Assembly: GCA_902788865.1 (NCBI GenBank)
Contig: CADALZ010000011.1
Coordinates: forward strand, 54,587-115,740
Source of the DNA: an uncultured Bacteroidales bacterium
Lineage (GTDB): Bacteria > Bacteroidota > Bacteroidia > Bacteroidales > Bacteroidaceae
DNA length: 61,154 nucleotides
Reading direction: 5' to 3'
In this document: positions 190-51,559 of the stretch, one piece after another
Numbering within the stretch: the stretch's first letter is position 1
Layout: each line of letters begins with the position of its first letter
The notes under the pieces: generated by a model
The model's input: the letters and a program-made list of their open reading frames with translations, nothing else
Told to the model about the DNA's origin: nothing
The model's database searches: none
Translations under genes and position numbers: made by a program

Positions 190-956
190 AAATAGCAATT
201 ATCGGAGCAGGAAACATGGGTGGAGCCATCTGCCGTGGACTGATGCATGGAGAGGAAGCCCTGCAGGTAGTGGTTTCAAACCGTTCCATGGGGAAGCTCG
301 AAGCCCTGAAGGCTGACTATCCTACCCTTGAGGTGACCACAGACAATAAGGCAGCTGCTCAAGGAGCCGATATGGTGATCTTGGCTGTGAAGCCTTGGCT
401 CATGGAGAGCGTACTGAAAGAGATACAGCTGCAAGAGTCACAGGTGCTGGTCTCTGTAGCTGCAGGCATCAGCTTTGAGCAGTTGGCTGCTTATACAGGC
501 TGGCAGCATCAGACCATGTTCCGTCTGATACCCAACACAGCCATCAGCCACTTGCAGAGCATGACCATCATAGCCAGTCAGAATGCTACCAAGGAGCAAG
601 AAGCACTGATGCTGAGCCTATTCAACCAAATGGGTATGGCTCTGATGGTGCCAGAGTCTAAGATGGCTGCCTGCACCTCACTCACCTCGTGTGGCATTGC
701 CTATGTGCTGAAGTACATCCAGGCAGCCATGCAGGCTGGCGTGGAGCTGGGACTCTACCCTCACGAGGCACAAGAAATGGTGGCTCAGTCGGTACTGGGG
801 GCTGCTACCCTCGTCTTGAAGAACCAGCAGCATCCTGCCATCGAGATAGACAAGGTTTGCACCCCTGGAGGACTCACCATCAAGGGCATCAACCAGTTGG
901 AGCATGATGGCTTCACATCGGCTGTGATAAATGCCATGAAGGCCAGTATGAAATAA
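186..956 (+). CDS. proC: Pyrroline-5-carboxylate reductase
   Basis: 256 residues, normal for the family. It reduces pyrroline-5-carboxylate to proline with NAD(P)H, the last step of proline synthesis, in the cytoplasm. An N-terminal Rossmann nucleotide-binding loop GAGNMG is at residues 7-12, VKPW at about 68-71, the conserved PNT at 116-118, and the family signature CTPGGLT at 225-231. The ATG overlaps the argD stop by the ATGA arrangement, so the two are probably translated together. ProB and ProA, which supply the substrate, are encoded about 19 kb away on the same strand. Confidence 0.96.
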   Translation: MKIAIIGAGNMGGAICRGLMHGEEALQVVVSNRSMGKLEALKADYPTLEVTTDNKAAAQGADMVILAVKPWLMESVLKEIQLQESQVLVSVAAGISFEQLAAYTGWQHQTMFRLIPNTAISHLQSMTIIASQNATKEQEALMLSLFNQMGMALMVPESKMAACTSLTSCGIAYVLKYIQAAMQAGVELGLYPHEAQEMVAQSVLGAATLVLKNQQHPAIEIDKVCTPGGLTIKGINQLEHDGFTSAVINAMKASMK

Positions 957-970
957 ACAAAATCTATAGC

Positions 971-3745
971 ATGAAGAAGATCTTTTTATTAGGCTGCTTA
1001 CTGCTCAGTACAGTGAGCTTCGCACAGAAACGCCCGCTCGACCATAGTGTGTATGATGGTTGGAAGCACGTGGAAAGTAGCAAGATTTCCAACAAGGGCA
1101 ATTTCGTGGTGATACAGACCGACCCCCAACAGGGAGATGGTGTGCTGACCATCCATCGAGTGAAAAACGGACAAGAGCTGAAGATAGCCAGAGGCTACAA
1201 TGCCACACTGCTGCCCAACGAGCAGTATGCCGTGTGCCTCATCAAGCCACACTTTGCAGACACCCGTCAGGCTCGTATCGACAAGAAGAAAGCCGACGAT
1301 ATGCCTAAGGATAGCTTGGCCATCGTGCGTCTGTCTGATTTCCAGACCACCAAGATTCCGTTTGTGACGTCCTACCGCATAGGGACAGAGAGCAATGAGG
1401 CTGTGGCCTATATCTCTGCTGATACCACAGGCATTGACAAGAAGGCCAAAGGTGCCAAGCCTTTGCTGGTGTATCATTTTGCCAATGCTAAGACAGATAC
1501 CATCAAGCAGGTGGATAAGTATGCGTTCAGCAACGATGGCCTTACGTTGGTCTATACCACAGACGATGGGAAGAAGCACCCCACAGTGGGCGTGTATAGC
1601 GTGGCTACCTCCAGCACCAAGGAGCTGAGCAGCGGACATAAGTTCTACACCCTGCCACAGTTTGACGCCAAGGGCAGTCAGCTGCTCTATCTGGCTTCTG
1701 CCGATTCTCTGGATACAGGTACTAAGCATTGCGATCTTTATTACTATAGAGTGGGTGATGCGTCTTCGCGTCGTCTCATAGCCAGTGATTATAAGCAGGG
1801 ACTGCCTGAGGGTTGGGGGCTGAATCAGTATGCCAATCCATTCTTCAGTGAGAATGGGGAGCGCATCTTTGCTGGCGTGGCAGAGCACATTGCTCCAAAG
1901 GATACCACCCGTGTGTCTTTCGAGACAGCAGGACTCGACATCTGGTCGTGGGATGCACCTGAGACTCCGCCTTCACAGCTCATCAATATCAACCGTGTGC
2001 GTGAGCGCACAGCTTTGGCACTGGTAAATGCGCAGAGTGGCACCCTCACCCCACTGGGTCGTGGTGTGTTCGATCGCATCATCTTGCCTGATCAGGGTAA
2101 TGCCAACTATGCCGTGAGCATAGACCGCACCAGCCACATGGTAGAAAGCCAGTGGAACTACCAGCTGCCACAGGAGGTGTCTATCATCAACCTTCAGAAC
2201 GGACAGCGCACCCCTCTGCTGCAGGGGGCCAACGTGGCAGGAGTCTCTGCCTCACCTACTGGCAAGTACCTGCTCTGGTACGACTATACGCAGAAGGACT
2301 GGATAGCCTATAACACGCAGAGCCGTGAGACGCACAACCTCACTGCTGGCTTAGGAGTGAATTTCTGGGACGAGCTGAATGATACGCCAAGCGATGCCAG
2401 TCCTTATGGCATAGCTGCTTGGACAGAGAATGATGCCTACGTGCTCATCAATGACCGGTATGATGTATGGCAGATTTCTCCTGAGGGCGGACAGGCCATC
2501 AATCTTACAGGAGGCCAAGGACGTGCCACGAGCGTGACCTACCGCTTTGTGCGCACCAAGCAGACTACAGCTGTGCCTGGAAGTTTTGGCGCCTCTGGAC
2601 GTGCAGATGCCCTGAGTCTGAAAGAGCCTTTGGTATTCAGTCTTTTCGACAATGGTACCAAGCAGTATGGCTATGCCACCCTGAAAACGCTAAAGGCTGG
2701 TGCGCCTGTGCAGTTGGCTAAGGGTGACTTCATGTACACGGCTCTCAGCAAGGCCAAGGAGGCAGAGGCCTACATTTATATGAAGCAGAACTTCCAGCAG
2801 TGCCCTGATGTCTATTTCACTACCAACTGGAAGGGCGAACAGCGTCTGAGTGATGCCAATCCTGAACAGGCCAACTACCTCTGGGGTACGGCCGAGCTTT
2901 TCAAGTGGAACGCCTACGATGGCACTCCGCTCGAAGGTCTGCTCTATAAGCCTGAGAATTTTGATGAAAGCAAGAAATATCCTGTGATGATCTACTTCTA
3001 CGAGCGTCGCTCTGAGAACCTTTTTGCTTACTATGAGCCTGCTCCAAGTCGTAGCACGGTGAACATCAGTTTTTATACCAGCCGTGGCTATGTGTGCTTC
3101 GTACCCGATATCGTCTATACGGCTGGCCTGCCGGGTGAGAGTGCCTACAACTGCATCTGTGCTGGGGCAGAGGCTTTGGCTGAGAACCCGTGGATTGACA
3201 AGGACAACATGGCTATACAAGGTCAGAGCTGGGGTGGCTATCAGACATCCTACCTCATCACGCGCACCAATATGTTCAAGGCGGCTGGCTCTGGCGCTCC
3301 TGTGTCCAACATGACCAGTGCCTATGGTGGCATTCGCTGGGAGAGTGGCAGCAGTCGTCAAGGACAGTACGAGCAGGGGCAGAGCCGCATAGGACGCAAC
3401 CTCTGGGAAGCTCCTGAACTCTACATCTCCAACTCGGCTCTCTTCAAGGCCGACCGCATAGAGACTCCTGTGCTCATCATGCACAACGATGCCGATGGAG
3501 CTGTGCCTTGGTATCAGGGCATAGAGTTCTTCATGGCCTTGCGTCGCTTGGGCAAGCCAGCTTGGCTGCTGCAGTACAACAATGAGGCGCACAACCTCGT
3601 GGAGCGTCGCAATCGCATCGACCTCAGCATCCGCCTGCAGCAGTTCTTCGACCACTACCTGAAGGGTGATCCTGCTCCTGCTTGGATGACCAAGGGTGTG
3701 CCCAGCATCAAGAAAGGCGAGTACTTCGGACTGGAAACGGAATGA
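971..3745 (+). CDS. Secreted prolyl oligopeptidase-type peptidase (S9 family)
   Basis: 924 residues. The N-terminus, MKKIFLLGCLLLSTVSFAQ, is a classic signal peptide, so the enzyme is exported, probably to the periplasm. A long N-terminal beta-propeller-like region is followed by an alpha/beta hydrolase domain. The likely catalytic triad is Ser753 in GQSWGGYQ, Asp842 in HNDADGAVP and His874 in NNEAHNL. S9 enzymes cleave oligopeptides or release dipeptides after proline or other residues; the exact specificity cannot be read here. It starts 14 bp after proC and may be cotranscribed. It is longer than typical DPP-type S9 proteins. Confidence 0.9.
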   Translation: MKKIFLLGCLLLSTVSFAQKRPLDHSVYDGWKHVESSKISNKGNFVVIQTDPQQGDGVLTIHRVKNGQELKIARGYNATLLPNEQYAVCLIKPHFADTRQARIDKKKADDMPKDSLAIVRLSDFQTTKIPFVTSYRIGTESNEAVAYISADTTGIDKKAKGAKPLLVYHFANAKTDTIKQVDKYAFSNDGLTLVYTTDDGKKHPTVGVYSVATSSTKELSSGHKFYTLPQFDAKGSQLLYLASADSLDTGTKHCDLYYYRVGDASSRRLIASDYKQGLPEGWGLNQYANPFFSENGERIFAGVAEHIAPKDTTRVSFETAGLDIWSWDAPETPPSQLININRVRERTALALVNAQSGTLTPLGRGVFDRIILPDQGNANYAVSIDRTSHMVESQWNYQLPQEVSIINLQNGQRTPLLQGANVAGVSASPTGKYLLWYDYTQKDWIAYNTQSRETHNLTAGLGVNFWDELNDTPSDASPYGIAAWTENDAYVLINDRYDVWQISPEGGQAINLTGGQGRATSVTYRFVRTKQTTAVPGSFGASGRADALSLKEPLVFSLFDNGTKQYGYATLKTLKAGAPVQLAKGDFMYTALSKAKEAEAYIYMKQNFQQCPDVYFTTNWKGEQRLSDANPEQANYLWGTAELFKWNAYDGTPLEGLLYKPENFDESKKYPVMIYFYERRSENLFAYYEPAPSRSTVNISFYTSRGYVCFVPDIVYTAGLPGESAYNCICAGAEALAENPWIDKDNMAIQGQSWGGYQTSYLITRTNMFKAAGSGAPVSNMTSAYGGIRWESGSSRQGQYEQGQSRIGRNLWEAPELYISNSALFKADRIETPVLIMHNDADGAVPWYQGIEFFMALRRLGKPAWLLQYNNEAHNLVERRNRIDLSIRLQQFFDHYLKGDPAPAWMTKGVPSIKKGEYFGLETE

Positions 3746-3767
3746 CGCTCTCCTTATGACACATAAA

Positions 3768-3806
3768 AAAGGCGGACTCTCTGTGTGCAGAGCCCGCCTT
3801 TCTTTT
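3768..3806. terminator. Bidirectional intrinsic terminator
   Basis: AAAGGCGGACTCT (3768-3780) pairs with AGAGCCCGCCTTT (3789-3801) with one mismatch. T-rich sequence follows on the plus strand and a T-run follows on the minus strand. It lies between the convergent S9 peptidase and TlpA-like genes and can serve both. Confidence 0.85.
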
Positions 3807-3822
3807 ATCTTGCCCAGAAAGT

Positions 3823-4365
3823 TTACTTCCCGAAAACGCTATCCATATAGGTATAGAACTCAGGATCCTCACCCATCACTATTTTCACGATCTTGCCGTT
3901 CTCATCAAGCAAGATTTTCCATGGGTAGCCCTGCACCTCATACGCCTTAGCCACATCGCCCTCGCCTGCAGGATTATACACATGCAGCCATGGTATCTGA
4001 TGCTTCTCCACGCCAGCACGCCATTTCTCCTCGCTCTCACGGCAGTCTATGCTCAGGAACTCCACTTGGTCCTTATATTTCTCATAGGTAGCCTTCATCT
4101 CTGGCAGTCCGCGTATGCACCAGATGCACCAGCTGCCCCAGAAGTCGAGCAGTGTATATTTGCCCTTACCATAGAGAGAAGACAACTTGAAGTCGTTGCC
4201 CTGCAGGTCTTTCAGCGTGAAGTCGGGAGCCTGCACACCCTCCTTGATTTCCTCCTGCAACACGTCAATGCCCTTTACTGGGTTTTCACCACCCTCATTC
4301 ACGGCTGCCTTAGCACCCAATGTCATCAGGGCAGCCCCAGCCAATACTAGTAAAAATTTCTTCAT
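3823..4365 (-). CDS. TlpA-like thiol-disulfide oxidoreductase, exported
   Basis: 180 residues: signal peptide (MKKFLLVLAGAALMTLGAKA) followed by one thioredoxin-fold domain. The motif GVQAPDFTLKDLQG and the active site FWGSWCIWC (Cys80 and Cys83) are typical of AhpC/TSA-Redoxin proteins of the TlpA/ResA class, which act in the periplasm as thiol reductants or in cytochrome c maturation. A conserved proline in GYPW near the C-terminus fits the cis-Pro loop. It is a lone gene on the minus strand; a TATCTTCG box (plus 4395-4402) about 30 bp upstream of the start may be its -7 element. Confidence 0.9.
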   Translation of the reverse strand: MKKFLLVLAGAALMTLGAKAAVNEGGENPVKGIDVLQEEIKEGVQAPDFTLKDLQGNDFKLSSLYGKGKYTLLDFWGSWCIWCIRGLPEMKATYEKYKDQVEFLSIDCRESEEKWRAGVEKHQIPWLHVYNPAGEGDVAKAYEVQGYPWKILLDENGKIVKIVMGEDPEFYTYMDSVFGK

Positions 4366-4394
4366 AACTTCCTGTTATTTAGTTATATTCGGTG

Positions 4395-4402
4395 CGAAGA
4401 TA
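4395..4402 (-). promoter_or_regulatory. Possible -7 element for the TlpA-like gene
   Basis: On the minus strand this reads TATCTTCG, one base from the Bacteroidetes TAnnTTTG consensus, about 30 bp upstream of the start codon. No convincing -33 element was found at the usual distance. Confidence 0.4.
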
Positions 4403-4466
4403 AGCAGAAAGTTTGAAAAAATGATAATTGAAGATTAAGAATTGAGAATTATTCACAATTCACGGT

Positions 4467-5648
4467 TCACGTTTCTTCGATCCTTCGCTCCAAGAAGAAC
4501 CGCTTCGTGGCAAGGAAGAACAGTGCTACGCCCGAGCCATTCACCACGCTCACCGTCCAGAAAGCAGCGGCATAGCCCAGCAGCTCTACCAGCACGCCCC
4601 CTATGAGGATGCCCAGTCCCATGCCAGCATCCCACGCTATGAGGATACTACTGTTGGCCGTACCACGCTCATTGTGGTGTGCCACGCTGATAAACATATT
4701 CAGGAAGGCTGGATACATGTGTCCGTTGCCCAGACCTATGAGGATGGCCGATCCGTAGTAGCCCACCATGTTGGGGCACGCCACGAAGAGCGTGTAGCCT
4801 ATGAAGGAGAGCACCATGCCCTCTGCCGCATTGTGCGTCAGCCTACCCTCACGGAGCGACTTTGCCCCTTGCAGTCGAGATACGAACAGACCTATGGAGA
4901 GCAGCATAAAGTAGGTGCCCGTGCCACTGGTGATGCCCATCACCTCCTTGCCATAGATGGCCAGATAGTTGCTCAGCACGCCAAAGCAGAAGGCAAACAG
5001 CAGTATGTTGATGGCCATGAGCCAAGAGCGTGTGAGAAAGAAGCGGTCCAGCGAGAGCTTCTCCTTGTTCTTCACGATTTCCTTCGTTGGCAGCTCCACC
5101 GTATGGTCCACAGCCAGTCCGATGCCAGCCACCACCAGCGCCAACCAGAACAGCAGCGTGAAGTTGCCCGTCTCATGGTAGATATACAGTCCCACCGTTG
5201 GAGCCAGCGCCATGGAGAGGTTGTTGCTCAGTCCGTAGTAGCCTATGCCCTCGTTTCTGCGTGAGGCAGGCAGCACGTCTATCGCCACCGTACTGTTGGC
5301 CACCGTCAGGGCTCCGAAGGGCATGCCATGGAGCGTACGGACGATGGCAAACATCAGCAGGGTGCCTGCTGCCAGATAGCCGGCAAAGAAGGCGAAGAAG
5401 AAAAAGAAACACGCCATGAGCACCCGCTTGCGGTCGAAGCTATCTACCACGAAACCACTGAACGGACGGATGATCAGTGCGGCGATGGTATAGCCCGACA
5501 GCACGATGCCAATCACGTCCTTCGTCGCTCCGAAGCGCTCGCTCAGATAGAGCGGCAGCAGAGGGGTGAGCAGGTAGAAGGCGAAGAACAACGCAAAGTT
5601 GGCCACCATCACCTTCAGATAATTCTTATTCCAGAGTTTCTCTTCCAT
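4467..5648 (-). CDS. MFS transporter
   Basis: 393 residues from the chosen start MEEKLWNKNYLK; the frame is open further upstream (to 5801) but that stretch is AT-rich, not hydrophobic and overlaps an inverted-repeat element, so the shorter start is preferred. About 12 hydrophobic segments are visible. The loop after TM2 contains GFVVDSFDRKRVL, the major facilitator motif A. It resembles arabinose/multidrug-efflux type MFS proteins, but the substrate cannot be told. It is an inner-membrane protein in a single-gene unit. Confidence 0.85.
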   Translation of the reverse strand: MEEKLWNKNYLKVMVANFALFFAFYLLTPLLPLYLSERFGATKDVIGIVLSGYTIAALIIRPFSGFVVDSFDRKRVLMACFFFFFAFFAGYLAAGTLLMFAIVRTLHGMPFGALTVANSTVAIDVLPASRRNEGIGYYGLSNNLSMALAPTVGLYIYHETGNFTLLFWLALVVAGIGLAVDHTVELPTKEIVKNKEKLSLDRFFLTRSWLMAINILLFAFCFGVLSNYLAIYGKEVMGITSGTGTYFMLLSIGLFVSRLQGAKSLREGRLTHNAAEGMVLSFIGYTLFVACPNMVGYYGSAILIGLGNGHMYPAFLNMFISVAHHNERGTANSSILIAWDAGMGLGILIGGVLVELLGYAAAFWTVSVVNGSGVALFFLATKRFFLERRIEET

Positions 5649-5666
5649 ATCGTCTGTTTTGCGCTG

Positions 5667-5674
5667 CAAAATTA
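5667..5674 (-). promoter_or_regulatory. Possible -7 element for the MFS gene
   Basis: Minus strand TAATTTTG matches TAnnTTTG, about 20 bp upstream of the chosen MFS start. No clear -33 box. It also supports the shorter start. Confidence 0.45.
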
Positions 5675-5744
5675 AGCACTTTTCAGTAAATGAGAAAACG
5701 TTTACCTTAATTCCGATATCATCATACATTTTTTTGAAATAAAT

Positions 5745-5968
5745 TGAACTGAAATGAATAATCCCCACATAAATATGCAGCCATTCTATACATCTTTGCA
5801 TATAAATGCCTCACGAGGTAAATTGACTTCCCTCACGAGGTAATTTTTACGCCCTCACGAGGAAGACAAAGTTTTAATAAGAAAAGCGGTCTGATTATGT
5901 ATGAGATGAATTGCGTATTAATTACATAGTGTATAATTATGCATATGAGGATTTTTCATTTCAGTTCA
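5745..5968. repeat. 224-bp inverted-repeat element with three phased 10-mers (element A)
   Basis: The ends are TGAACTGAAATGAATAATCC (5745-5764) and its inverted copy at 5949-5968, with a single mismatch. Inside are three exact copies of CCTCACGAGG at 5809, 5831 and 5853, a period of 22 bp, preceded by TGCATATAAATGC-like sequence and followed by TTATGCATATGAGG. No ORF fits. The structure resembles a miniature inverted-repeat element (MITE) or an iteron array. It occupies much of the gene-free gap 5649-6256. Confidence 0.75.
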
Positions 5969-6099
5969 TTCAATTATATAAATACGCATATATTCATGGA
6001 GAGGTTTGTGAACACAAAAAAATGATGTATTCGGAGTGGGAATTGTACCCTCTTAAGTGATAACGTGTAGGAGGGAGAGCAAAAATATTTCCTGAAAAG

Positions 6100-6131
6100 T
6101 TTGGTGGTTTGAAATAAACGCCTTATCTTTG
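6100..6131 (+). promoter_or_regulatory. Promoter of the tRNA-Gly/tRNA-Leu unit
   Basis: TTTG at 6100-6103 and TATCTTTG at 6124-6131 with a 20-bp spacer match the Bacteroidetes housekeeping consensus. Transcription would start near 6138 and run through a structured leader into the tRNAs. Confidence 0.75.
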
Positions 6132-6166
6132 TCCCCGCAAAAGAGAATTGCGAAAAACAACAAACG

Positions 6167-6236
6167 CGGAATTCTCGTGCAAATGAGCGCAAAGCCAAGC
6201 TCGCTTGAGCTTTGCCGAGTGCAGCCGAGAATGCCG
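6167..6236 (+). other. Structured leader stem-loop upstream of tRNA-Gly
   Basis: An outer stem pairs CGGAATTCTCG (6167-6177) with CGAGAATGCCG (6226-6236) with one internal mismatch. An inner hairpin pairs GCAAAGC+CAAG (6189-6199) with CTTG+GCTTTGC (6204-6215) around a CTCG tetraloop and one bulged base. It lies wholly in the predicted primary transcript and about 20 bp before the tRNA. It could be a processing element, a small RNA or a dispersed repeat. Confidence 0.6.
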
Positions 6237-6256
6237 AAAAATTATGAAATAATTTT

Positions 6257-6329
6257 GCGGAAATAGCTCAGTTGGTAGAGCACAACCTTGCCAAGGTTGG
6301 GGTCGCGAGTCCGAGTCTCGTTTTCCGCT
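6257..6329 (+). tRNA. tRNA-Gly (GCC)
   Basis: A complete 73-nt cloverleaf: acceptor GCGGAAA/TTTCCGC with discriminator T, D arm AGCTCAGTTGGTAGAGC, anticodon stem CAACC/GGTTG with loop TTGCCAA (anticodon GCC), and T arm GCGAG-TCCGAGT-CTCGT. The T loop begins TCC rather than the usual TTC. CCA is not encoded. Confidence 0.95.
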
Positions 6330-6345
6330 CTCCCTCAAGAAGGCC

Positions 6346-6430
6346 GCTCGGATGGTGGAATCGGTAGACACGAGGGACTTAAAATCCCTTGGCCATTGCG
6401 GCTGTGTGGGTTCAAGTCCCACTCCGAGTA
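6346..6430 (+). tRNA. tRNA-Leu (TAA)
   Basis: An 85-nt class-II tRNA with a long variable arm. Acceptor GCTCGGA pairs with TCCGAGT (one G-U) plus discriminator A; anticodon loop CTTAAAA gives anticodon TAA; T loop TTCAAGT. It begins 16 bp after tRNA-Gly and shares its promoter and terminator. Confidence 0.95.
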
Positions 6431-6444
6431 CAGAAAGAAAAGAG

Positions 6445-6475
6445 AAGTCCTGAACGATTGTTCAGGACTTTTTTA
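6445..6475. terminator. Bidirectional terminator between tRNA-Leu and argH
   Basis: AAGTCCTGAAC (6445-6455) pairs perfectly with GTTCAGGACTT (6460-6470) around GATT, followed by TTTTTT on the plus strand. The opposite strand is also T-rich after the stem, so it serves argH as well; the argH stop codon lies in the T-run. Confidence 0.9.
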
Positions 6476-7813
6476 TTTAGCACTTTCCAATAACGCTTGC
6501 TCTGCCTGCTCCACGCGCTCGAAGTGGAAGCCTGAGAGGACATCGGTCATCAGGGCTTGGATCTCAGCGTTGCAGAGGCGGCCGATGCTGCCCTCGTGGG
6601 TGTGATGCACCTCCTTGGAGTGCGTGAACTCCCCACGCTCGAACTCCAGCCCCACCTGCTTGTAGGCATCGCGGAAGGGCACGCCCTGCAGCACCAACTC
6701 ATTGACACGCTCCACGCTGAAGATGGGCAGGTAGCGCGGATCATCGAGGATATGCTCGTTTACCTTGACACGGCTCAGCGTGTAAGCTGTCATGTGCAGG
6801 CAGTCGATCAGTTCATCGAAAGCAGGCAGGAAGACTTCCTTCAGCAGCTGATAGTCGCGGAAGTAGCCCGTAGGCAGATTGTTCATCATGAGCACTATCT
6901 GCTGGGGCAGACTCTGCAGCTTGTTGCACTTGCTGCGCGTGAGCTCGAAGACATCGGGATTTTTCTTATGCGGCATGATGCTGCTGCCTGTGGTGCACTC
7001 ATCGGGCAGCTTGAGGAAGCCGAAGTTCTGACTGTTGTACATGCAGGCATCGAAGGCCAACTTCGACACGGTGCCGGCAATGCCAGCCAAGGCAAACGCC
7101 ACATTGCGCTCCATCTTGCCACGCCCCATCTGCGCATAGACCACGTTATAGTCGAGCGAGTCGAAGCCCAAGAGACGGGTGGTCATGGTGCGATTCAGTG
7201 GGAAGGATGAGCCATAGCCAGCGGCAGAACCCAGCGGATTTCGATTCACCATCTTATAGGCTGCCTGCAGCAACTGCAAATCATCTACGAGGCCCTCTGC
7301 ATAGGCACCAAACCACAGGCCGAAGCTGCTGGGCATGGCTATCTGCAGGTGGGTATAGCCTGGCATGAGCACGTCTTTATAGCGCTCGCTCTGCTCGATG
7401 AGCACGTGGAAGAGTTCTTCTAATGCCTCTGTGAGGCGATGTATCTGCGAGCGTGTGAAAAGCTTGAGGTCGAGCAGCACCTGGTCGTTGCGTGAGCGTC
7501 CGCTGTGTATCTTCTTGCCCACATCGCCCAGCGTGCGTGTAAGCATGAACTCCACCTGCGAGTGCACATCCTCTACATCGTCTTCTATCTGGAACTTCCC
7601 CTCCACTGCGAGCTGGTAGATCTGGCGCAGCTCTGCCAGCAGCATCTTGAGTTCCTCGGCAGTGAGCAGTCCGATGCTCTGCAGCATGGTGATGTGTGCC
7701 ATGCTACCCAGCACGTCGGACGCTGCCAAGTAGAGGTCCATTTCACGATCGCGCCCCACTGTGAAGCGCTCAATCTCCTTGTTTACCTGTACTGATTTTT
7801 CCCAAAGCTTCAT
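6473..7813 (-). CDS. argH: Argininosuccinate lyase
   Basis: 446 residues, usual length. It splits argininosuccinate into arginine and fumarate, the last step of arginine synthesis. Family marks: SGRSRNDQV at about 104-112, the catalytic TH pair at 154-155, and the fumarase/aspartase signature GSSIMPHKKNP at 276-286. The C-terminal stretch after about 400 is poorly structured. It is the last gene of a minus-strand run, separated from the SRPBCC gene by a 150-bp repeat array and ended by the shared bidirectional terminator. Confidence 0.97.
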   Translation of the reverse strand: MKLWEKSVQVNKEIERFTVGRDREMDLYLAASDVLGSMAHITMLQSIGLLTAEELKMLLAELRQIYQLAVEGKFQIEDDVEDVHSQVEFMLTRTLGDVGKKIHSGRSRNDQVLLDLKLFTRSQIHRLTEALEELFHVLIEQSERYKDVLMPGYTHLQIAMPSSFGLWFGAYAEGLVDDLQLLQAAYKMVNRNPLGSAAGYGSSFPLNRTMTTRLLGFDSLDYNVVYAQMGRGKMERNVAFALAGIAGTVSKLAFDACMYNSQNFGFLKLPDECTTGSSIMPHKKNPDVFELTRSKCNKLQSLPQQIVLMMNNLPTGYFRDYQLLKEVFLPAFDELIDCLHMTAYTLSRVKVNEHILDDPRYLPIFSVERVNELVLQGVPFRDAYKQVGLEFERGEFTHSKEVHHTHEGSIGRLCNAEIQALMTDVLSGFHFERVEQAEQALLESAK

Positions 7814-7825
7814 AAAAGCGATGCT

Positions 7826-7952
7826 TTTAAAATTAAAAGATTATAAAATTAAAAAATTAAAAAAACGTTGTAGTTAGGATGGAAGGAGCGGCGAAGCCGC
7901 AATCTTCGCAATCTTCGCATATTTGCATTTTTTAATTTTTTAATTTTAAAAT
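7826..7952. repeat. AT-rich inverted array with GGCGAAGCC core (array 1)
   Basis: The left arm (7826-7866) consists of AATTAAAA-like units; the right arm (7927-7952) is its inverse. The centre holds GGATGGAAGGAG, CGGCGAAGCCGCAAT (to 7903) and two copies of AATCTTCGC. It fills the SRPBCC-argH gap. The same core recurs in the next array at 8.5 kb. Confidence 0.7.
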
Positions 7953-7971
7953 ATAGCCGCGGCTATATTTT
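7948..7971. terminator. 24-bp perfect palindrome at the SRPBCC stop codon
   Basis: A perfect palindrome centred on GCCGCGGC with AAAATATA/TATATTTT flanks. It overlaps the TAG stop (7963-7965) of the SRPBCC gene. On the minus strand it is followed by AT-rich sequence with T-runs, so it may end transcription; a symmetrical protein site is also possible. Confidence 0.5.
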
Positions 7972-8379
7972 ACTGTATGGTATCTGCGCCAGCAGTCCGG
8001 CTATCTTCTCCACGGCATCTGTGAGCGGCTTCTTCACCATGGCCATCATGAACGAGTTCATGTTAAGTCCCACGGTGACGCGCATCTTGCACTGGCTGCC
8101 CGTGATGGGGAGCAGCTGCACCCACATGTCGAATGGCAGGGGCGACTGCACCGTGCTATACTTGATGGTCTTGTTAGGCTCCTTCTCCACGAGCTTCAGC
8201 GTGACCATGCCCATAGGACTCTTATAGGAGATGCTGTCCTCGCCAATGACGATGTCCTTCAGCTGGTCTTCTGGGATACGCTCCTTCAGACGGGTGAGGT
8301 TATCCACATTGCTGAGCACGTCGAACACCACGCGCTGTGGAGCCGTTATCTCTTTTTCACTGCTATGAATTTGCTCCAT
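7963..8379 (-). CDS. SRPBCC-fold protein (polyketide cyclase/START-like)
   Basis: 138 residues. The beginning, with EKEITAPQRVVFDVLSNVDNL, is the usual first strand and helix of small SRPBCC/START proteins, and the C-terminal helix (KKPLTDAVEKIAGLLAQI) fits the helix-grip fold. No signal peptide and no catalytic motif are visible, so it probably binds a small hydrophobic ligand in the cytoplasm; function unknown. It sits between pyrE and argH on the minus strand with repeat arrays on both sides. Confidence 0.75.
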   Translation of the reverse strand: MEQIHSSEKEITAPQRVVFDVLSNVDNLTRLKERIPEDQLKDIVIGEDSISYKSPMGMVTLKLVEKEPNKTIKYSTVQSPLPFDMWVQLLPITGSQCKMRVTVGLNMNSFMMAMVKKPLTDAVEKIAGLLAQIPYSKI

Positions 8380-8385
8380 TTTAGT

Positions 8386-8536
8386 ACATTAAACGTTATA
8401 CATTAAACGTTATACATTAAACGTTATACATTATACATTAAACTTTAAGCATTAAACATTAACTATATAGAGCGAAGCCATCTGGATGGGAACGGCGAAG
8501 CCGTAATGTTTAATGTTTAACGTTTAATGTTTAGCG
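8386..8536. repeat. Tandem 14-mer array with inverted arm and GGCGAAGCC core (array 2)
   Basis: Three exact head-to-tail copies of ACATTAAACGTTAT at 8386, 8400 and 8414, degenerating to 8462. An inverted arm of ATGTTTA-type units lies at 8504-8536. Between them are GGATGGGAACGGCGAAGCCG and TAAT (8484-8507). It fills the whole pyrE-SRPBCC gap. Confidence 0.75.
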
Positions 8537-8537
8537 T

Positions 8538-9176
8538 TCAAAGGCTGTCTCCCCAGTGTGCAGGATCCTTGCGCCACTGATTCAGCGTATCTATGTCGCC
8601 CTCTTCGATATAGCCTGTGCGGAGGGCCTCTTCGAGCACCATCTCATAGTTGGTGAGCGTGACGAGCTTCACCTTGGCCTCCTTGAACGCCTTCTCGGCC
8701 ACAGGGAATCCGTAGGTATAGGAAGCTACCATGCCTATCACCTCGCAGCCATCACGACGGATGGCCTCCACAGCCTTAAGGCTGCTGCCGCCCGTAGAGA
8801 CGAGGTCTTCTACCACCACCACCTTCATGCCCGGACGAAGCTCGCCCTCGATGAGGTTTTCCAGACCGTGATCCTTAGGTTTAGAGCGTACATATACGAA
8901 GGGCAGATTCAGGGCGTCGGCCACCATGGCACCCTGGGCAATGGCACCTGTAGCCACGCCAGCGATAGCATCGACTGCGCCAAACTGCTCCATGATGATG
9001 CGCGTGATTTCTGTCTTGACAAAATTGCGCAATGTGGGATAAGAGAGTGTCTTACGGTTGTCGCAATAGAATGGCGACTTCCAACCTGAAGCCCATGTAA
9101 AAGGGTTGTTTGGCTGCAACTTGATAGCCTTAACTTTCAGTAATTTCTCTGCAAAAAGTCTCTCTACGTTTTTCAT
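8538..9176 (-). CDS. pyrE: Orotate phosphoribosyltransferase
   Basis: 212 residues. It joins orotate to PRPP to give OMP in pyrimidine synthesis. The PRPP-binding loop VVVEDLVSTGGSS is at about 120-132, and the GVATGAIAQGAMVADAL segment at about 73-89 and YVRSKPKDHG at 95-104 match the type-I PRTase fold. An upstream -7 box (plus 9245-9252) suggests its own transcript. Confidence 0.96.
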   Translation of the reverse strand: MKNVERLFAEKLLKVKAIKLQPNNPFTWASGWKSPFYCDNRKTLSYPTLRNFVKTEITRIIMEQFGAVDAIAGVATGAIAQGAMVADALNLPFVYVRSKPKDHGLENLIEGELRPGMKVVVVEDLVSTGGSSLKAVEAIRRDGCEVIGMVASYTYGFPVAEKAFKEAKVKLVTLTNYEMVLEEALRTGYIEEGDIDTLNQWRKDPAHWGDSL

Positions 9177-9244
9177 AATTTCTTTATTCGCTTTTTGTTT
9201 AGTTTAAAGAAAGACAAAGACGAGCCTGTCTTTGCTTTTGAGGG

Positions 9245-9252
9245 CAAAGATA
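9245..9252 (-). promoter_or_regulatory. -7 element upstream of pyrE
   Basis: Minus strand TATCTTTG, about 70 bp before the pyrE start. No good -33 box. The leader between contains an AAAGAC/GTCTTT hairpin of uncertain meaning. Confidence 0.5.
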
Positions 9253-9323
9253 ATAAACCCCCGCGAGATAGGAAAGCGTAACGGGGATTTTTTAGCAGTC
9301 TGAACGCAAAAAAAACGTCAAGA

Positions 9324-24101: not shown

Positions 24102-24225
24102 TTTGCTTATGCTCAGCCTATGCTCTCACTGTGAGCAAAAATGCCCACGCCTGTGAGCATTTATTTTTCTAACGTGAGAAAAATAAAACGGCAGTTAGCC
24201 AAATCTGTGAAACAGCCCAATCTCA
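24102..24225. repeat. Phased GTGAG motifs (element C, left part)
   Basis: GTGAG occurs at 24131, 24153 and 24174 (spacing 22 and 21 bp), each with AT-rich spacers and partly palindromic context (GCTCTCACTGTGAGC). Upstream TTTGCTTATGC resembles the TGCATAAAAATGC flank of the other phased arrays. No supported gene; a 75-codon frame here and beyond has no features of a protein. Confidence 0.6.
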
Positions 24226-24471
24226 TTTTACTCTACACCTCTACACCTTTTGGGTATATCTCACTGGAAATCTGCCTGTTAGATGGGTGTAGAGTGGCTT
24301 TCAACTCTACATCCACTCTACACCCACATTACACCCTACTAATGAAGAGAGCAACTGTAAAGGTGTAGAGTGGGTTTAGAGAGGGTGTAGAGTCAAGGAG
24401 CACCCTACACCCATTTAAATACCTGAGCAATAGCCATTTATATCTAAAAGGTGTAGGGGTGTAGGGTAAAA
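24226..24471. repeat. CTCTACAC/GTGTAGAG inverted-repeat cluster (element C)
   Basis: 26-nt end repeats at 24226-24251 and 24446-24471 (24 of 26 matching in inverted orientation), each with two tandem 8-mers (CTCTACAC or GTGTAGGG). Inside lies a perfect 13-bp inverted pair, GGGTGTAGAGTGG at 24285 and its complement at 24313, and further copies at 24364, 24385 and 24404. At least nine copies of the 8-mer in both orientations. Non-coding; adjoins the SusCD1 terminator. Confidence 0.7.
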
Positions 24472-29464: not shown

Positions 29465-29592
29465 TGTCAATTTGTGTATATTTATGCGCTTTATATGACA
29501 TTTCGTAATATTTTTTTAGGTTCCTGGTGAAAAAAAGTTCAAAACATTTTGTGATTCAGATTTTTTTACTCACTTTTGCAAAGTTTTTATAA

Positions 29593-51240: not shown

Positions 51241-51559
51241 TGCAATGATGTGAAAAAAAAACTGACCAACTGACCAACTGACCGTTTTTTTGCTTTTGCA
51301 TAAAAATGCGTTTTATAGAAAAACACGTTGTTTCTTTGCATAAAAATGCAGATTTTGAGCATTAACAGTGCTACATGTCAATAGGGGTAATTTTAATTCT
51401 CAGGTGAGGAGAAAATTTTTCCCAAGTGAGGAAGTCAAAATCTCCTCATAAAGGAAAAGTGAAAATGATAATTAGCAAATTAATGCATAAATATGCATTA
51501 GTTAGAGACAAAAAACCGGTCAGTTGGTCAGTTGGTCAGTTTTTTTTCACACCATTGCA
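51241..51559. repeat. 319-bp element with about 44-nt inverted ends (element B)
   Basis: Ends 51241-51284 and 51517-51559 match in inverted orientation with one mismatch and one indel; their inner part is three tandem ACTGACCA units. The interior has TGCATAAAAATGC twice, GTGAGG-type 10-mers starting at 51400, 51422 and 51444 (22-bp period), and ATGCATAAATATGCAT. No ORF of its own: the frame of the next gene stays open back into it, but without protein-like features. Confidence 0.8.

Follow-up and report, generated by a model that had tools for sequence, protein, structure and literature searches.

What do three otherwise unrelated loci, at 5.8, 24.1 and 51.4 kb of this DNA, have in common, and is it a functional core or a mobile one? 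The window, by which we mean the whole 61,154-nt stretch that was analyzed, is C11:54587-115740 of a draft genome (G000) of 2.69 Mb in 80 contigs that is 84% complete. A preliminary description had proposed a single architecture for the three loci, namely a common flank, three units stepped by 21-22 bp and AT-rich sequence, set between inverted ends that differ from locus to locus. On balance we lean towards an account in two layers: a register of palindromes repeating every 22 bp and, at 51.4 kb, a MITE-like relative of an ATPase-bearing element in which the array would act in cis.

Anatomy of the three loci

The three CCTCACGAGG units at 5.8 kb (5809-5862, plus strand) follow one another in exact 22-bp steps, at 5809-5818, 5831-5840 and 5853-5862, and this is the sole place in the window that matches a two-unit CCTCACGAGG pattern with up to three mismatches (mean of 100 shuffles, 0.01). 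Direct reading gives TTTGCATATAAATGC at 5795-5809 (plus strand), and the array is flanked by two sites of the TGCATAAATATGCA type, CACATAAATATGCA at 5766-5779 and TGTATAATTATGCA at 5930-5943, both on the plus strand and both matching 12 of 14 bases. The inverted ends consist of a left arm of the AACTGAAATGAA type (5724-5775, plus strand, 52 nt) and a right arm (5938-5989, minus strand), which pair with 73% complementarity.

The layout is that of the 51.4-kb locus, with weaker ends. At 51.4 kb the left inverted arm (51241-51292, plus strand) contains three 8-bp repeats (AACTGACC), and TGCATA-type sites begin at 51297, 51337 and 51484; TGCATAAAAATGCG (51297-51310) and TGCATAAAAATGCA (51337-51350) match 12 and 13 of the 14 bases of TGCATAAATATGCA, respectively, and the third site (51484-51497) matches all 14, each on the plus strand. 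The 22-bp array (51399-51453, plus strand) lies between the second and third of these sites, with CTCAGGTGAGG at 51399-51409, CCCAAGTGAGG at 51421-51431 and a third unit, TCCTCATAAAG at 51443, that is in register and weak. The right arm (51509-51559, minus strand) closes the MITE-like element, whose ends comprise 39-nt arms that are 97% complementary and 20-nt outer arms that are 95% complementary.

The 24.1-kb locus is a different composite, an array beside a CTACACC-type inverted-repeat element. The array (24124-24178, plus strand; TCTCACTGTGAGC, CACGCCTGTGAGC and TCTAACGTGAGAA) has GTGAG at 24131, 24153 and 24174, in steps of 22 and 21, within a palindrome unlike that at 5.8 kb, and the locus has neither a site matching at least 12 of the 14 bases of TGCATAAATATGCA nor the TGCATAAATATGC flank. 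The multi-hairpin element (24226-24471, no strand assigned; 33-nt arms at 24226-24258 and 24439-24471, 88% complementary) has more copies elsewhere in G000, and the array adjoins it outside its left end, not within. The two arms of a copy co-vary both in this type (p 0.03, eight copies) and in the CTGACC type found at 51.4 kb (rank 1 of 120 pairings, five copies), results that are suggestive only.

The common architecture, and with it the conserved interior between divergent ends, therefore stands for the 5.8- and 51.4-kb loci and fails at 24.1 kb, where the palindrome is another and the flank is missing. The three units per locus are exact at 5.8 kb, hold with steps of 22 and 21 at 24.1 kb and weaken at the third unit at 51.4 kb. 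The AT-rich palindrome had been correctly placed at 5.8 and 51.4 kb, where TGCATAAATATGCA-type sites (12-14 of 14 bases) flank both arrays, and the inverted ends do differ among all three loci. A longer copy bounded by like ends was found in G000 for the 51.4-kb family only; the end types at 5.8 and 24.1 kb gave no gene-bearing partner there.

Ends of the CTGACC type occur at seven places in G000, and both ends are present in five of them (the window, C4, C14, C20 and C27). When aligned, the five two-ended copies have arms, TGCATA-type sites and array in one order, some units being degenerate, and the array stands at the same place in each. The C27 copy spans 1837 nt and comprises arms identical at 51 of 51 positions, the array, the palindromes and one 430-aa ORF that runs up to the right arm with its stop codon; no other ORF of at least 100 aa is present except a single nested antisense frame. 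It has no transposase, and its sole gene encodes a predicted P-loop-type ATPase related to DUF3987 proteins. A conserved interior with divergent ends had been called unusual for a MITE; at least the 51.4-kb locus is MITE-like, a non-autonomous relative of a longer, gene-bearing element in the same genome.

One copy is present in G000 and absent elsewhere. The C14 copy (L205) is missing from the syntenic intergenic site in G082 and G023, two array-rich relatives in the same genus, such that matched flanks 465 nt apart in G000 are separated by 94 and 98 nt, respectively. No clean empty site was found for the 51.4-kb copy or for L203 (three copies tried, including L205). The flanks of the L205 empty site are too diverged for a target-site duplication to be read, and no clear duplication is shared by the flanks of the five CTGACC copies, with two boundaries set 2 nt off. 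Several G000 contigs end in or beside array elements (C18:47334-47384, C28:36814-36882, C30:51520-51814 and C53:1-203); the assembly was therefore probably broken by copies that are nearly identical, and the true copy number is probably higher than the count.

A register of 22 bp with several palindrome classes

In 149 genomes of the genus, the pattern CCTCRYGAGG-N{4,34}-CCTCRYGAGG matched at 45 places, 39 with a gap of 12 and six with a gap of 34, these being counts of reported places with possibly one gap reported per place. The other 29 of the 31 allowed gaps gave no match, so that in these genomes only the 22-bp register, the spacing given in the preliminary description, is populated. The matches are confined to 11 of the 149 genomes, and a reversed control pattern matched once. 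With the gap fixed at 12, GTDB genomes yielded 96 stretches; among the 80 that were listed, Bacteroidales-group titles account for 70 and other titles for 10. The Bacteroidales set of 83 unique arrays excludes 16 non-Bacteroidales loci (by record title, viral contig, or high G+C where no title was listed) and one of 84 arrays for its short flanks, arrays being merged only when identical including 15 nt on each side. L120 was retained despite its Clostridia title because its sequence is like that of the G082 elements. The resemblance of this contig (JAFUGC010000014.1) to those Bacteroidales elements extends to both array and flanks, and it is likely mis-binned.

Of these 83 arrays, 72 lie mostly outside ORFs of at least 90 codons, DNA that makes up 16.7% of the loci; neither this mostly intergenic placement nor the confinement to one register counts against the preliminary description, which had named both as possible grounds for refuting it. 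One step beyond the matched pairs, 45 of 166 neighbours score at least 6/8 at offset 22; the other ten offsets between 17 and 27 give 0-2 of 166 apiece. Within the window, GTGAG-N17-GTGAG with at most one mismatch occurs 12 times, where 5.06 would be expected and the highest of 100 shuffles reached 11. Of its five exact occurrences, two fall at 5.8 kb, the 24.1- and 51.4-kb loci have one each, and the fifth is in an ORF at 48.9 kb.

A lag score for intergenic regions, relaxed because exact-palindrome counts in G000 were too small (one pair in a 400-kb sample and two in the window), gave lag 22 as the commonest once periodic-divisor lags were dropped. This was so in G000 (8 of 165 regions, with the window included and known arrays not removed), in G021 (6 of 136) and in G082 (6 of 133, in a sample partly picked at known arrays); in G064 lag 22 tied with lag 12 (2 of 165 regions). 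It was found in none of 117 regions of G044, from another family, and in none of 87 from E. coli K-12. Without the divisor filter, G000 has lag 22 in 10 regions, lag 14 in 9 and lag 21 in 8, the last arising from 7-bp repeats, and shuffled regions gave one match over all lags. For exact palindromes, lag 22 is the sole clear intergenic lag in G082 (8 pairs). The genes around G000 arrays are convergent at one, divergent at one and in tandem at eight, as compared to 28, 37 and 100 among regions overall; in these small counts no clear orientation bias was found.

Within a unit, the 10-bp palindrome is kept and the 12-bp spacer varies, and palindromes of different classes occupy one and the same register. 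For four classes in loci of G023 and G082, the distance between palindromes of different classes is an exact multiple of 22 in 35 of 74 cases (15 of 29 in G023 and 20 of 45 in G082), pairs that are not independent because the two genomes have related elements in common and the loci were partly picked for arrays. Twelve decoy sets with shuffled arms, run on these same loci only, gave 0-5 exact multiples among 26-69 pairs. The cross-class register is weaker in G000 (11 of 84 distances at residue 0, and 26 of 84 within one base). The interior of L007, wrapped at 22 bp, presents TGTGCGC-, CCTC-, CTCACA- and CCTA-type palindromes successively in a single phase; L210 has the same set in reverse order, and L201 has another set. 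In the L193 locus (1658-1834), CTCACA-type units are preceded by TTACGG-type units that apparently share their 22-bp register and are perhaps a fifth class. Samples of G021 and G064, neither of which has a CCTC-class match, contain 22-bp arrays of other palindromes whose motifs (ACTATAGT, ATAGTGACGGTAT and CTAAGTATACTTAG) are unrelated to those of G000. In one array of G021 (L318, 3923-4008) ATAGTGACGGTAT is present in both orientations. The common property is the register, not one sequence.

Flanking TGCATAAATATGCA-type sites (12 of 14 bases, on at least one side) accompany 5 of 15 close-relative arrays, 1 of 68 others and 0 of 415 shuffled flanks, the single case among the 68 being the window locus, mis-grouped by script. 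Two lone TGCATAAATATGCA-like sites (12 of 14 bases) lie in the window at 29475 and 60854, away from the noted arrays. Where neighbouring units have changed, their arms pair slightly more often than in shuffles (185 of 328; mean 175, with 314 of 5000 shuffles reaching 185), an excess that is weak.

Gene-bearing relatives and the reach of the array-element link

The 430-aa protein of the C27 element matches no Pfam or NCBIfam family with E up to 1; comparison with solved structures found no match at that limit either. The protein does find L219, L220 and L221, at 6.6e-24, 4.4e-14 and 1.8e-10, respectively, homologues among which are DUF3987 matches (1.6e-12 and 1.7e-8) and a BT4734-like_N match (1.8e-8), and G000 has nine homologues in all, some with these two domains. 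An alignment of six proteins keeps a GKS or GKG stretch and an MDE or VDE stretch in five, which we take to be Walker A-like and Walker B-like, respectively. From its sequence, the protein is thus predicted to be a P-loop-type ATPase related to the DUF3987/BT4734 primase-helicases. Matches in PHROGs are weak: L239 matches a structural protein at 0.0032 and L202 a primase at 0.018 and a helicase at 0.03, with none for L255 and L253. A phage origin was considered and rejected: 60 pattern-matched viral stretches contained neither a gene for a relative nor an exact CTGACC end.

An inverted repeat above the 99% level of the null (14.5; mean 9.7, largest 43.5) is present at six of 36 homologue loci. 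Three have tight arms: L246, which is the C27 element (51 of 51 positions), L255 of G082, also sampled as L225 (33 of 33), and L239 on C45 of G000 (28 of 28), with scores of 51, 33 and 28. In each, a three-unit array lies upstream of the gene and the right arm directly follows the stop codon; in L255 the array is located in the leader, and L239 is a composite in which its own right arm closes the array segment before the gene. The other three (L243, L237 and L230) have their repeats placed further out. Tight arms are therefore seen in 3 of 7 short-form genes with visible flanks, four short-form genes in G159 and G160 being left out of this count for having too little upstream DNA. Among the remainder, the C68 gene (L254, also sampled as L214) has only a weak arm pair with one arm 1.5 kb upstream, and L235 and L267 have no inverted repeat above the null.

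Ends also recur beside longer homologues. The TGTAAACTGTAAAGG end of a mini-element on C17 is found again after the stop codon of a 757-aa homologue on C55, with no upstream arm within 1.5 kb, and in G175 a 9-kb stretch containing a 757-aa homologue has a CTGACC end at either edge. This stretch (L404, G175:C16:146800-156800, at 243-9268) has inverted CTGACC repeats, several ORFs and a primase-type gene near the right repeat, and is possibly a larger relative of the mini-elements. End type does not track protein relatedness: the proteins of L255 and L202 share 74% identity and the ends are unrelated, and the L404 protein, at 47% identity, has CTGACC ends. The idea that the protein specifies the ends found no support here. 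In the 100 nt that follow the stop codon, repeats of 7-9 bp (score 11) occur at 10 of 46 DUF3987-family genes as compared to 42 of 609 control genes, a moderate enrichment (Fisher p 0.002, rank test p 0.00015, with five cut-offs examined), and the strongest such repeats overall follow control genes. At L270, L271, L258 and L253, the stop codons of primase-type genes overlap or directly adjoin clustered 8-9-bp repeats such as TGACACCGTAACACTGTAACGCCGTAAC.

How far does the link between array and element extend? Flanking inverted repeats above the 99% null were found at 3 of 83 arrays, by a test that misses degenerate arms, and such repeats were thus not found to be a general property of arrays. 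A general placement of arrays beside DUF3987-family genes was likewise not found, there being one such gene in 82 loci (14 of 96 having been excluded by the same non-Bacteroidales criteria). Copies of the CTACACC type have the array outside, to the left in some and to the right in others, with none seen beside L200. With clear inverted repeats around no more than 3 of the 83, the array is best seen as a wider module contained in some elements. At the same time, five kinds of inverted end enclose 22-bp arrays in the loci inspected, so that the preliminary description came close with its mobile core captured by different repeats, except that what these cores have in common is a register and not a sequence.

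Competing readings and known systems

The reading that we favor takes the array as a run of two-fold symmetric sites exactly two helical turns (22 bp) apart, in which CCTC..GAGG, CCTA..TAGG, CTCACA..TGTGAG and TGTGCGC..GCGCACA can each occupy positions of one register. The geometry is plain in the arrays themselves, and it suggests that dimeric proteins assemble next to one another along one helix face, in the manner of plasmid iterons or cooperative operators. In elements this assembly would serve copying or silencing, the array and TGCATAAATATGCA palindromes together forming a putative cis region for the element's replication or mobilization complex, or else for a host silencer, while the arms of 8-bp repeats would mark the element ends and the ATPase may take part in movement. 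A fuller version, in which transposase-less elements with fast-changing 8-bp-repeat ends and a shared multi-class interior are moved or copied by a primase-helicase-type ATPase and exploit the register as a genus-wide chromosomal site, is one that we hold only tentatively.

The arrays might instead be host regulatory or nucleoid sites unrelated to mobility, which mobile elements merely acquired or beside which they inserted. The 80 of 83 arrays under the inverted-repeat threshold agree with this, as do the arrays of other palindromes in G021 and G064 and the CTACACC copies, with their outside arrays of varying side and the case of L200. We nevertheless doubt it, as the array occupies the same place in the three perfect-armed gene loci and the five two-ended CTGACC copies, so that in those cases it has been kept as a part of the element.

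Tandem duplication followed by drift, which would leave the 22-bp register as a minisatellite relic whose spacing is unread by any protein, predicts a fixed period as well; some arrays do resemble plain minisatellites (for example L322 of G021), and the available text on P. gingivalis W83 mentions 22- and 23-nt tandem repeats (PMC4596501). Drift of this kind fits poorly with a 10-bp palindrome that is kept while its spacer varies, with motif classes that switch along an array without breaking the register, or with the motif inverted within the register in L318, and we consider the duplication account improbable. Transcribed RNA structure, in the form of terminator or attenuator hairpins, is more improbable still, to the point that we give it very little weight. 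Inverted arms do adjoin T-runs at gene ends and some palindromes could form hairpins, but the centres of neighbouring units are not preferentially complementary (AC-AC 21 and GT-GT 19 versus AC-GT 11 and GT-AC 13, with GC-GC 11 and AT-AT 5 complementary regardless), which makes a role for the arrays in RNA unlikely. Moreover, some in-register palindromes (ACTATAGT) are loopless, and Rfam at gathering thresholds returned six tRNAs only, with no match at the arrays.

Against this background, the two-layer account can be set beside several known systems. As in REP/BIME sequences the palindromes are intergenic, whereas here they hold a fixed 22-bp register and fall into several classes. Iterons of plasmids are also spaced by two turns. 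In ori2 of V. cholerae, as far as the available text describes it, the first iteron and the DnaA box are 22 bp apart and share one face of the helix, a distance that matters (PMC5872114). The arrays share with iteron origins repeated sites two turns apart, AT-rich surroundings and, in three loci, a replication-type ATPase nearby; unlike such origins they are chromosomal, have palindromic units of several classes and often lack a replication gene in the vicinity. BT4734-like proteins are listed among the archaeo-eukaryotic primases and DUF3987 is a predicted mobile-element helicase in the available portion of PMC5862659, and the gene of our elements shares with these proteins its group and a predicted role in mobile-element replication; the terms "iteron" and "terminal inverted" are absent from the main text of that paper. 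In our alignment, the inverted-repeat-bounded forms (430-533 aa) are without the N-terminal part of the long forms.

None of the matches listed in our literature search described these arrays or DUF3987 elements with inverted repeats. If the account is right, members of the uncharacterized Bacteroidales gene group DUF3987/BT4734 would gain a role, each being the only gene in a small element bounded by inverted repeats, and the arrays would point to a DNA-bound assembly that reads spacing more strictly than sequence, of which the papers that we found give no description. The nearest described element that we found, judging from the available text, is BrickBuilt of P. gingivalis (PMC4596501), which is likewise intergenic and multicopy, has inverted ends, lacks coding capacity in its small form and has inside it an array with a unit length close to two helical turns. 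The 23-nt repeats of BrickBuilt are contiguous, with no spacer between them, and its 12-nt ends resemble those of IS5-family elements, as far as that text goes, whereas here the period is 22, with 10 conserved and 12 variable bp, and the ends at 51.4 kb are arms with 8-bp repeats. In contrast to both MITEs and BrickBuilt, the gene-bearing form here has a predicted ATPase in place of a transposase.
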